From: a bacterium
Lineage (GTDB): Bacteria; Cyanobacteriota; Vampirovibrionia; Gastranaerophilales; Gastranaerophilaceae
Direction of reading: 5' to 3'
Assembly: GCA_017480425.1 (NCBI GenBank)
Contig: JAFVAR010000018.1
Span: 1 to 64,000 of the forward strand
DNA: 64,000 nt
Shown here: piece by piece, positions 32,127 through 36,446 of the stretch
Layout of the letters: each line of letters opens with the position of its first letter
Position numbering within the stretch: the first letter of the stretch is position 1
Made by a program: the position numbers and the translations under genes
The notes under the pieces: model-generated
Database searches by the model: none
The model's input: the letters and a program-made list of their open reading frames with translations, nothing else
Told to the model about the DNA's origin: nothing

Positions 32127-33770
32127 ATGAACCTGTTATCATCATTAAATATAAGCCAAGGTGCTTTATCAGTAAACGAAAAAGCAATCAGTGTTGTTTC
32201 GCACAACGTTGCAAATATGAATACAGAAGGGTACCACAAGCAGAGAGTTAACCTTGCCGCAAGAAATATTGCAGGTCAAATCGGAGATAACCCTCTTAAT
32301 CAGGTACGTGCAAACGGCGGTGTAATGATAGCAAATGTTATGAGATATAACGATGACTATCTTAACAATTACTACAGACAACAGTTGGCACAAAGAAATA
32401 TGTATGAGCAGCAGCTAGGCAACTTGGATGATTTGGCAAATATATTCAATGATTTGGACGGAACCGGTATAGACAGTGCACTAAGTGATTTTTATGATGC
32501 ACTTAATAACTTAAACCAATATCCGGCAAGCTCTACCGCTCGTGCAAACTTTATTGAAAGAGCTAAGTCTTTAGCTTCAATAATGAATTCAAAGAGTGTT
32601 GAATTAAGTAAATTAACAGGTCAGGCTCTCGGAACCGGCGATTCAGCGGAGGCTTTGGCAAATTCAAGAATTTATGCTCAATATAGAGACCTTAATAATT
32701 CTCTGGAAGAGCTTGCAGCAGTAAACAAAGCTCTTCAAACAACTCAAACAGGAACATTAACTGCAAACAATTTGTTAGACAAAAGAGACTTGATACTGCA
32801 CGATATTTCTCAATATTTGGATATAACAGTTGATGAAAAACAAAACGGTACTGTTAATGTATATGTAGGAGATGTTCCTCTTGTTAAGGGCTCAACGGTT
32901 ACAGGTTCTTTAGAAGTTCAGACTGCGAAAGACTATTGTGCAAACCACGAACCGCCAATAGGAACTCCTGATGATTGGTCTGATATATGGTATAACCAAA
33001 TGCATGGTGAAGCTGCAGTTATCAGTATTGTTGATAAAAGCGGTGATTCATACAGTGTTATTTATGATAATGCAAACGGAATTATTCAAGGCGGTGCGTT
33101 GGGCGGATTAATCCACTCTGCAACAGACTACGATGACGGTGTAACTAATGCAGGTACAGTTCAAGCTGCCTTAGATACTTTAGCATCAACAATAGCTGAT
33201 GTGTTCAACACATTAAACACAAGGGAAGGTGCTTATTGCATAAATCCAAATGATACTAATTTATTAACCGAAACAAATGCAAATAATACAATATTCCAAA
33301 GTAGTGACGGCGGCCCGATTACAGCTGCTAATATTACAATCAGTGATAATTTAAGGTCAAATGACGGTATTTGGAACATTGCTTGTGCATATTTTGAAAA
33401 TGAAGCAGACAGACCGAGCGCAACAAATCCGGATGCATATAATGCAGTTGGTAACGCTTTCAACGTTGTCGATATGATGGCAACAAGAAACGCAAAACAA
33501 GGCGGTGAAATGAAGGGTATGTCATTTGAGGATTTTTATTCTAATATACTCGGTAAAGTAGCTTCAGCAGGTGACACAGCAAAATCGCTTTATGAAACTC
33601 AATGTGATGTGGTTGATTCATTGGAAAACCAACTTGATTCGGCTTATGGTGTTGACTTAAACGAAGAATTAGTTGACCTTGTTAAATACCAAACTGCTTA
33701 TGCGGCAGCAGCCCAAGTGTTTAATACAGTAAACGCTTGTCTTGATACTTTAATGACATTAGGAAGGTAG
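32127..33770 (+). CDS. flgK: Hook-filament junction protein FlgK
   Basis: A 547-residue FlgK (HAP1). It has the axial-protein N-terminus SVVSHNVANMNTEGYHKQRV, a variable middle and the C-terminal helix EELVDLVKYQTAYAAAAQVF. It is secreted by the flagellar apparatus and sits at the hook-filament junction. flgL follows 4 nt later. Start supported by GAGGTAGAAG. Confidence 0.95.
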   Translation: MNLLSSLNISQGALSVNEKAISVVSHNVANMNTEGYHKQRVNLAARNIAGQIGDNPLNQVRANGGVMIANVMRYNDDYLNNYYRQQLAQRNMYEQQLGNLDDLANIFNDLDGTGIDSALSDFYDALNNLNQYPASSTARANFIERAKSLASIMNSKSVELSKLTGQALGTGDSAEALANSRIYAQYRDLNNSLEELAAVNKALQTTQTGTLTANNLLDKRDLILHDISQYLDITVDEKQNGTVNVYVGDVPLVKGSTVTGSLEVQTAKDYCANHEPPIGTPDDWSDIWYNQMHGEAAVISIVDKSGDSYSVIYDNANGIIQGGALGGLIHSATDYDDGVTNAGTVQAALDTLASTIADVFNTLNTREGAYCINPNDTNLLTETNANNTIFQSSDGGPITAANITISDNLRSNDGIWNIACAYFENEADRPSATNPDAYNAVGNAFNVVDMMATRNAKQGGEMKGMSFEDFYSNILGKVASAGDTAKSLYETQCDVVDSLENQLDSAYGVDLNEELVDLVKYQTAYAAAAQVFNTVNACLDTLMTLGR

Positions 33771-33774
33771 CATT

Positions 33775-34749
33775 ATGTACTCAAACAGAATCTCAACAGC
33801 AGCAAGATACAATTTATTGGCTTCTGATATCAAGAAGAATGAAGAAGCTTTCAACAGACTGACTGCACAACTTGCATCAGGCAAAAAGTTTTCCAGCATT
33901 ACGGAAGACCCTATTGCTGCGGTGAATATTGTAAATACAAACAGGCAGTTAGGTCAAATTGAAACATTCAACAAGAATGTTGAAATGGCAAAAACAGAAA
34001 TTCAAACAATGGATGATTTGTTGGATTTGGCAAACGGATATTTGTCAAGAGCATGGGATAAGGCAGTTCAAGCAAATAACCAAACATATAACGATGATTC
34101 ACTAAAAGCTTTAAAAGTTGAAATTGACGAAATTTTGAATACTGTAGTTGATTTAGCAAATACTGAATTTAACGGTAATTATGTGTTTGCCGGAGCAAAT
34201 GTAAAACTGCCGCCTTACAAGTTTGATGAAAACGGAAATGTAATATATACAGGTACAAAACAGGGAAGTCCGTATATTCGCCAATATGAAGTTGCTGATG
34301 GTGTATATGAAACAATCAACACTACCGGCGACAAAGTGTTTGGCTGGTATGAAGGTGACGGTGAAGGTGAATATTCCGGCTTGATAGGTACTTTAAAGTT
34401 ATTAAGTAACTCAATTCAAGGTGTTGTTGACGGACACGCTGAAGGTGATAATGCAAAAGTTCAAGAATCTTATGAAAAGATGAATTCAACACTTTCCATG
34501 TTCCAAAAATCGCTTGATACAATAACTGCTGAGCAAACAAAATTCGGCGGTGTTTATAACAGATTAGAGATGACGAATAATACACTTGAAACAAATACAG
34601 AAAACTTGACTTCATACTTATCACAACTTCAGGAAGTTGATATTGCTCAAGCTGTTTCTGATTGGTATCAAGCACAGTATGCATATCAAGCAAGTCTTCA
34701 AGTTGCGTCAGCATCAATGGGTATGAGCCTATTGAATTATATGCAGTAA
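33775..34749 (+). CDS. flgL: Hook-filament junction protein FlgL
   Basis: A 324-residue flagellin-like junction protein (HAP3). The N-terminal coiled coil (LASGKKFSSITEDPIAAVN) and C-terminal helix (ALQ-type, QYAYQASLQVASASMGMSLL) are typical. It is the last gene of the plus-strand flagellar operon and is followed by a terminator lying in the first 46-bp repeat. Confidence 0.93.
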   Translation: MYSNRISTAARYNLLASDIKKNEEAFNRLTAQLASGKKFSSITEDPIAAVNIVNTNRQLGQIETFNKNVEMAKTEIQTMDDLLDLANGYLSRAWDKAVQANNQTYNDDSLKALKVEIDEILNTVVDLANTEFNGNYVFAGANVKLPPYKFDENGNVIYTGTKQGSPYIRQYEVADGVYETINTTGDKVFGWYEGDGEGEYSGLIGTLKLLSNSIQGVVDGHAEGDNAKVQESYEKMNSTLSMFQKSLDTITAEQTKFGGVYNRLEMTNNTLETNTENLTSYLSQLQEVDIAQAVSDWYQAQYAYQASLQVASASMGMSLLNYMQ

Positions 34750-34782
34750 AAATATTTATCCTAAGTTTAAATATTAAAAGAA

Positions 34783-34828
34783 TTAATATACTTACCATTT
34801 TAAGGGCATTTTATGTCCTTTTTTATTG
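34783..34828 (+). repeat. 46-bp direct repeat, copy 1, containing a terminator
   Basis: Identical to 35509-35554. It contains the hairpin AAGGGCA/TGTCCTT with loop TTTTA, then TTTTTT, a plus-strand rho-independent terminator placed 34 nt after flgL. Confidence 0.95.
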
Positions 34829-34848
34829 CGCTTGAGAAGATTTTACAG

Positions 34849-35388
34849 TTAATCATCTACATAGATTGTGCCATGAAACATATGCGGAATATCTGCCATC
34901 ATGTTTGTATATTCTTTCACAGAAATAGTATCTCCTTTATCTTTGGCAGGATCTGTTGCTTCATGGTATAACTCAAGGAATGCTACCATATTCTTTGTGT
35001 TAAAACTAGGGTCATCTTTGAGCTCGTCAAAAACATAAAGTTTGAAGCCATGAGTATCAGTAATATCAGGATTCTCTTTTGTTGAAAATTTTTTTATTGC
35101 TTCATATATAACTCGAGTATAACGGTCAGTTTCTATTTTAATAGTTTTGCCATTCAAATCTTTAAAATTAACGTATCTACCGTTGATTTCGGGCAAATTT
35201 GGTTTTGATAAATCAATCGGAGTAGTTTTTTCAATTGTGTCTGTTTTTTCAATTTTTTGTTTTTCAAAACTATCCGATTTATTATTTTGTGCTCCTGAGC
35301 AAGAGCTCAAAGCTTGCGATGCAAGTGCTATACTGCCTGCTACAATCATAGCTTTTATTGATGACATTGGGTTGATAGATAAACTCAT
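34849..35388 (-). CDS. Putative lipoprotein between direct repeats
   Basis: No family recognised. The 179-residue product has a signal sequence (IVAGSIALASQALSSC) with lipobox-like LSSC, followed by a lysine/threonine/aspartate-rich linker and a compact C-terminal domain (NLPEINGRYVNFKDLNG). Two ATGs are possible; the first has AAAGGAAAG upstream at 9 nt. The gene lies wholly inside a 726-bp segment bounded by two identical 46-bp repeats, suggesting it was inserted beside flgL. Outer-envelope location is inferred. Confidence 0.75.
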   Translation of the reverse strand: MSLSINPMSSIKAMIVAGSIALASQALSSCSGAQNNKSDSFEKQKIEKTDTIEKTTPIDLSKPNLPEINGRYVNFKDLNGKTIKIETDRYTRVIYEAIKKFSTKENPDITDTHGFKLYVFDELKDDPSFNTKNMVAFLELYHEATDPAKDKGDTISVKEYTNMMADIPHMFHGTIYVDD

Positions 35389-35508
35389 ATTTATATTCTT
35401 TCCTTTCTCTATATTTTGTCAACTTTAATATAGATAAAACTTGTAAATAATAATTTTGCTAGTTTTAAGAAAATTACTTACAAATATTTACATAACAATG
35501 AAAGAATT

Positions 35509-35554
35509 TTAATATACTTACCATTTTAAGGGCATTTTATGTCCTTTTTTATTG
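35509..35554 (+). repeat. 46-bp direct repeat, copy 2
   Basis: Second identical copy, 726 bp from the first. Here its plus-strand terminator has no plus-strand gene upstream, since both neighbours run on the minus strand. Confidence 0.95.
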
Positions 35555-35555
35555 T

Positions 35556-36446
35556 TTAAATTTTATCCCAACTGTTGTCGCTGCGAAGTCCCTGAAGTTT
35601 GTTGCGTTCAAGCCTGATTTTTTTATATTCCATTTCGCTTAATTGTGTTCCGTCAGAATCAAGCACCATGCATTTTTTGTCTTTTTTGACAACAATATAC
35701 TCTCCCATTTTTTTAATTTTATCAAAGTCGGGTTCTAACAATATTTTACCGAAAGTGCTTGCAAGTCCGTATTTATGATATTTTTTTAGTAATAATGAAT
35801 CGTTTATGAGTGTGATTTTGTCATACTCGTTATCGATAAGAGTTTTGCCGTCCGCATCTAAAACTCCGTAATATCCGTTAAGCTTGGTAATAAAAATGTT
35901 TTCTTCTACACGAAAAACTTTTTGGTATTTTGTTTGAGCAATATTTTTTTCGTGCAAATCGATGATTCCGTATTTTTTATTTAGCCTTACAAGAAGTCTG
36001 TTTGGAACAATTCCTTGCATGCTTGAATATGGGCGTGTTGTAAGCGCTTTGCCTTCAGTATCAATAACTTTGCAGATTTTACCCTGTCTTATTAAAAAAT
36101 AATGTTGTTTATCAAAAATTACGTGCTTTACACTTTGACAATTTGCTTGGATAATACCGCCATTTTTGTTGTAAATTGTGCTGTTTGAATAACTGCGTCT
36201 TGAACCATCTGAATATAGGTATGAAAAAGTTTCAGTCACAATGTAGTGAGAATCACAATCTGCAAATTTTTGTTCTGTTTTTTGGTAATCTCTGTTTATT
36301 AAATAAACAGAAGAACCTCCGCTCGAACCATGATAATAGCTGCCACGGTGATATCCTCCATGCCTTCCGTGATGATGAGAGGCTAAAACCTGAAAGTTAA
36401 AACCTGCAAACAACAGTGCAATAAATAACGCAACGATTTTTTTCAT
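35556..36446 (-). CDS. Exported WG-repeat protein
   Basis: A 296-residue exported protein with a signal peptide (MKKIVALFIALLFAGFNFQ) and a histidine/glycine-rich segment just after it (SHHHGRHGGYHRGSYYHG), which may bind metal. The rest is a series of degenerate WG beta repeats (KKYGIIDLHE, GYYGVLDADGKTLIDNEYDK, HKYGLASTFGKILLEPDFDK). Such repeats usually form a beta-propeller-like scaffold; function is unknown. GGAG precedes the start. In the ancestral arrangement it would face flgL directly. Confidence 0.85.
   Translation of the reverse strand: MKKIVALFIALLFAGFNFQVLASHHHGRHGGYHRGSYYHGSSGGSSVYLINRDYQKTEQKFADCDSHYIVTETFSYLYSDGSRRSYSNSTIYNKNGGIIQANCQSVKHVIFDKQHYFLIRQGKICKVIDTEGKALTTRPYSSMQGIVPNRLLVRLNKKYGIIDLHEKNIAQTKYQKVFRVEENIFITKLNGYYGVLDADGKTLIDNEYDKITLINDSLLLKKYHKYGLASTFGKILLEPDFDKIKKMGEYIVVKKDKKCMVLDSDGTQLSEMEYKKIRLERNKLQGLRSDNSWDKI

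Follow-up and report, generated by a model that had tools for sequence, protein, structure and literature searches.

A conserved element at the 3' end of the flgKL operon of a Gastranaerophilales genus is a candidate antisense RNA to a histidine-kinase mRNA and is duplicated in one strain

The 64,000-nucleotide (nt) stretch of Gastranaerophilaceae DNA analysed here (the window; contig C10, JAFVAR010000018.1 of assembly GCA_017480425.1) contains two identical 46-bp sequences, the first of which follows the flagellar gene flgL. To judge by its conservation in related genomes, this repeat is a duplicated 3' untranslated region (UTR)/terminator element of the flgKL operon, rather than the footprint of a mobile element. 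The element is conserved across the genus and is complementary to the coding sequence of a histidine kinase; the two sequences co-vary between genomes, and synonymous codons are frozen at the kinase site. Evolution strongly supports a pairing of element and kinase, and we consider it likely that the RNA of the flgKL 3' UTR acts in trans as an antisense or small RNA (sRNA) which base-pairs with the coding region of the kinase-operon mRNA.

The two copies lie at 34783-34828 and 35509-35554, 726 bp apart from start to start, on either side of a minus-strand lipoprotein gene, exactly where an earlier interpretation made without database searches (the sequence-only reading) had placed them. A terminator scan recovered in both the hairpin which that reading had described, a plus-strand terminator-like structure (AAGGGCATTTTATGTCCTT) with a U-run. 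Allowing one 2-nt indel, the likeness widens leftward to AAAGAA (34777 and 35501) and spans 34777-34828 and 35501-35554; copy 1 is two T short of the consensus AATTTTAATATAC, which copy 2 retains. A 20-nt part of the repeat, with up to three mismatches, was found twice in the window and was expected 0.03 times, so that the exact 46-bp repeat is far beyond chance. The assembly searched is 1.54 Mb long and 70% complete, and a 36-nt pattern with up to three mismatches found only these two copies in it and no third.

DNA 3' of flgL was collected from genomes of the same genus of Candidatus Gastranaerophilales; among named contigs, the flgL protein matches were to Candidatus Gastranaerophilales and rumen metagenome-assembled genomes. 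In 59 genomes, two of which (G025 and G032, with flgL matched only in part) were assigned by hand, the same element (AATTTTAATATACTTACCATTT, a hairpin and a U-run) occurs within about 130 nt downstream of flgL. Its layout comprises a leader near CTACAATTTTAATATACTTACCATTT, then AAGGACAT-loop-TGTCCTT and the U-run, and the 13-mer TATACTTACCATT is present in 62 of 65 genus members. The next gene past the flgL terminator varies between most genomes; since the same element follows flgL in all 59 and the gene beyond it is variable, the repeat represents the 3' end of the flgKL operon. Two terminator-type copies were seen in this genome only, among the genomes read, and relatives carry one copy after flgL, the single-copy state that had been foreseen for them. 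The seed of the element, AAUUUUAAUAUACUUACCAUUU, is AU-rich, is predicted to be unpaired and stands directly before the intrinsic terminator.

When the assembly was scanned for the 16-mer AATATACTTACCATTT with at most one mismatch, a single further site besides the repeats was found, antisense within a histidine-kinase gene (G000:C48:9565, locus L071). The same kinase gene was matched in six more genomes (G006, G007, G011, G021, G027 and G031). Gene order and Pfam matches show that the operon containing it, in the order response regulator, kinase, flgB, flgC and fliE, is kept across the genus. The element is the reverse complement of kinase coding sequence at a site in the ATPase domain, which in this genome encodes NGKYIKLK, and the likeness extends over 22-33 nt, into the species-specific loops of the terminator. 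As far as sequence can tell, the element thus has the features of a 3'-UTR-derived sRNA, namely an mRNA 3' end with an intrinsic terminator and a conserved, unpaired seed complementary to a distant mRNA.

Across 56 genomes, alignment of the element scores higher against the kinase site from the same genome than against those from other genomes (23.9 versus 20.5, z=12, p<=5e-5), while other windows of the kinase, used as a control, give |z|<2.6 in the same comparison. A run with 29 genomes agreed, both by alignment and by duplex energy. In a test on sister pairs, the kinase tree was built without the site and partners were swapped between sister genomes. Of 25 informative pairs, 22 scored lower after the swap (p=8e-5), and the effect was present in the part downstream of the seed alone (17/22, p=0.008) and in the seed and upstream part alone (7/8, p=0.035). 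The summed effect was 86, compared with a mean of 2.6 (sd 9.6, maximum 24) for 34 control windows. One A/T position shows agreement between element and kinase in 49 of the 56 genomes; wherever the element has T there (11 cases), the kinase has T opposite (Fisher p=2e-7, relatedness not corrected for). This agreement is not a single event, because three sister pairs (G064/G059, G001/G057 and G072/G032) differ at the position with both sides changed.

The codons of the kinase site carry a second line of evidence. Lys is encoded by AAG in 98% of cases at the site versus 2-37% at conserved Lys columns elsewhere in the kinase; further Lys columns within the site have AAG in 51% (the second) and 10% (the third). 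Gly is encoded by GGT in 96% (10-47% at conserved columns elsewhere) and Tyr by TAT in 98% (57-87% elsewhere). In four genomes (G005, G030, G065 and G066) the complement TACTTACCA..TCAAG is kept in another reading frame, where it encodes different amino acids. The sole genome with AAA at the kinase Lys column is G014, which has a complete flgL without the element.

It could be argued that the element is merely a well-conserved flgKL terminator, duplicated once and perhaps bound by a factor that acts in termination, processing or stabilisation, and that its match to the kinase came about by chance and persists through protein constraint. Several observations weigh against pairing, and some of them would fit this explanation. 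The NGKY codons read AATGGTAAGTAT, so that the core is a fairly common word on the strand opposite coding sequence; by itself, match length thus counts for less than base composition would lead one to expect. The kinase site is more variable than the element, and inserted codons interrupt it in G013 and G069; genomes with a disrupted kinase site still have an intact element. At the A/T position, seven genomes carry a T that is not matched, and the bias of mismatches towards G-U-compatible transitions (52 versus 31, p=0.03) is weak and not independent. Moreover, in other families of the order (L318-L334) the flgL terminator is preceded by a related motif (TACCATCTC, CCTACCRTCTCA or CCTACCRTCT), for which no match to kinase genes was found in those families. 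Kinase pairing therefore cannot be the only role of the element, which, judging from this wider distribution, also has an older one. Protein constraint, however, does not explain the frozen third positions, the own-genome effect in a variable protein loop or the move of the complement to another reading frame, and we consider it unlikely that the element is a terminator and nothing more.

The sequence-only reading had proposed that the repeats enclose mobile or recombination-acquired cargo, or a segment switched by deletion between them. Exact direct repeats surround a rare gene, the two terminator-type copies are peculiar to this genome and acquisition via a crossover at the element is possible, all of which would suit such a proposal. 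The repeat is nevertheless a conserved host element, the genus-wide 3' end of flgKL, and does not mark an insertion. Searches of Pfam, of phages and plasmids and, in one scan, of named genomes gave no match to the lipoprotein; distant relatives were found only in G004 and G026, at a housekeeping-gene locus. The empty site that had been predicted, with flgL, terminator and WG-repeat gene in succession, was not seen in relatives: orthologues of the WG-repeat protein (47-53% identity) occur in three relatives only (G008, G014 and G016), on contigs other than that of flgL, and their 3' ends are without the element. No recombinase gene was seen at the locus in the list of open reading frames (ORFs), and a mobile cassette would be recognised by such a gene, by dispersed copies or by relatives in which the same flanks enclose an empty site, none of which was found. 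A mobile cassette was accordingly abandoned as the leading view, and we regard cargo of either kind as highly unlikely. Nothing shows excision or switching of the segment, although the copies could in principle recombine. Possible routes to copy 2 include a crossover at the element, a template switch, or an older duplication kept by selection.

Two further explanations address the likeness between element and kinase. Both places might be sites of one DNA- or RNA-binding protein with a drifting preference, co-varying without pairing with each other. This would account for similar sequence in two places and for the co-variation, and the order-wide core could itself be a protein site. A likeness of 22-33 nt exceeds the usual protein site, however, the match is antisense to the kinase mRNA wherever it was found and the mismatches lean, weakly, towards G-U compatibility, so that a shared protein site seems to us very improbable. 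Repeated gene conversion or copying between the loci, with no regulatory role, is scarcely credible, for despite matched short strings at both loci in single species (e.g. G020, G071 and G025) the stretch they share is short for homologous recombination, and copying would alter amino acids and would not hold synonymous sites constant across the genus.

Other targets and other locations of the element were also considered. Further matches to the 13-mer are mostly antisense inside genes, several of them at NGKY codons, and were treated as chance. A seed aimed at flagellin start codons (ATGGTAAGT) was rejected, as the start regions of the flagellin genes read are different. In four genomes (L280, L284, L290 and L293) the seed 13-mer is antisense to one long gene (..CLENGKYNNDVI..) and the likeness continues as TTTTCAAGGCA, possibly another NGKY coincidence. 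A dispersed terminator family was not upheld, because scans of this genome and of the genus place the terminator-type element at flgL only, with a possible exception in G057. There, an intergenic TATACTTACCATT followed by the hairpin AACCCAATATACTATTGGGTT lies away from flgL (G057:C10:17936, L277 around 936) and may be a second element of another kind. Rfam returned no family above its gathering score for the element; whether Rfam holds the Escherichia coli sRNA FlgO was not checked.

Between the flgL stop codon and the seed, 38 of the 59 genomes have a hairpin with A(N)GGA in or at its loop (e.g. L049, L055 and L061); this genome is without it. The 38 hairpins have 29 different 5' arms, with a strongly co-varying stem, and shuffled sequence gave such a hairpin in 0.84 genomes on average. 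A(N)GGA in a loop is the established consensus of CsrA sites, and csrA was found in all 22 genus members searched. The hairpin fits a putative CsrA site. Leaders of flagellin genes (L145 and L148) carry ATGCAAGGATGCAT, a small hairpin with AAGGA in its loop, upstream of the ribosome-binding site, an arrangement that resembles CsrA control of hag in Bacillus.

The most likely course of events can be outlined for a flgKL 3' UTR that pairs with the kinase mRNA. Transcription of flgKL would yield the 3' end, and the active molecule could be a processed short RNA or the flgKL mRNA itself. This 3' end would pair as RNA with the kinase coding region, and the pairing may lower expression of the kinase and the rod genes, which would constitute feedback from the hook-filament stage onto the early operon. 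CsrA may take part. Copy 2 could stop read-through past copy 1 and, if transcribed, could add a second dose of seed; the search for a promoter of its own gave one promoter-like match, which is within background and whose start would fall inside the seed. On balance we favour a genus-wide antisense-RNA feedback loop in which the 3' end of the hook-junction operon pairs inside the early-operon kinase, strongly enough to freeze synonymous codons and to shape a variable protein loop, and in which the antisense/terminator unit would have been duplicated in this strain. The features of the locus are given in Table 1.

Table 1. Genes and element copies at the flgKL locus (positions in the window)
Feature	Position	Strand	Basis or remark
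flgK	32127-33770		Just 5' of flgL
flgL, hook-filament junction protein, parent gene of the 3' UTR element	33775..34749	+	Pfam Flagellin_N + Flagellin_C, ORF list
Element copy 1: flgL 3' UTR seed TTAATATACTTACCATTT (34783-34800), intrinsic terminator hairpin (34802-34820), U-run	34777..34828	+	Repeat, terminator scan, conservation after flgL
Lipoprotein-like ORF, 179 aa, between the copies	34849..35388	-	Signal peptide ends LSSC
Element copy 2, identical over 46 bp, left side equal to consensus AATTTTAATATAC	35501..35554	+	Without a plus-strand gene directly upstream
WG-repeat protein, stop codon abutting copy 2	35556..36446	-	PF14903, E=4e-13

The closest known systems to the element are E. 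coli FlgO and Campylobacter FlmE. FlgO is an sRNA from the flgL 3' UTR which is processed from its parent mRNA and ends in the flgL terminator region; it binds Hfq strongly, has few targets and gave no phenotype on overexpression in published assays (eLife 2023, PMC10578931). The element shares with FlgO its origin at the flgL 3' end and its membership of the flagellar hierarchy, and no sequence relation between the two was found. While no kinase target has been reported for FlgO, the element described here, known from its sequence, has a clear co-evolving partner in the kinase. Pairing inside coding sequences is known from MotR and FliX (PMC10578931). In Campylobacter jejuni, FlmE (CJnc230) is processed from the 3' side of the flgE mRNA and represses flgM (Nat Commun 2024, PMC11187230), and the targets given for FlmE and FlmR (CJnc170) are flgM and Cj1387c (PMC11187230). 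Like the proposed RNA, FlmE originates in the 3' part of a flagellar transcript and targets mRNAs of flagellar regulators in trans, but the parent gene and the targets of FlmE and FlmR are different. SR1 of Bacillus subtilis, whose base-pairing with ahrC is promoted by CsrA, also represses the kinase mRNA kinA (PMC8501984). It offers a parallel as a base-pairing sRNA with a kinase mRNA target and help from CsrA, a role that in the present case is suggested by the hairpin loops only; its source, however, is not a flagellar 3' UTR.

In the literature searched, no base-pairing sRNA was found described from Gastranaerophilales or Melainabacteria. The element and its kinase site would represent a specific, genus-wide RNA-mRNA pair in the flagellar hierarchy of these non-photosynthetic, gut-dwelling relatives of the cyanobacteria. 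They would also be unusual in that the antisense RNA seems to restrict its target at two levels, the synonymous codons and a protein loop. Considering FlgO in E. coli, regulatory RNAs may have evolved independently from the flgL 3' UTRs of phyla that are far apart.
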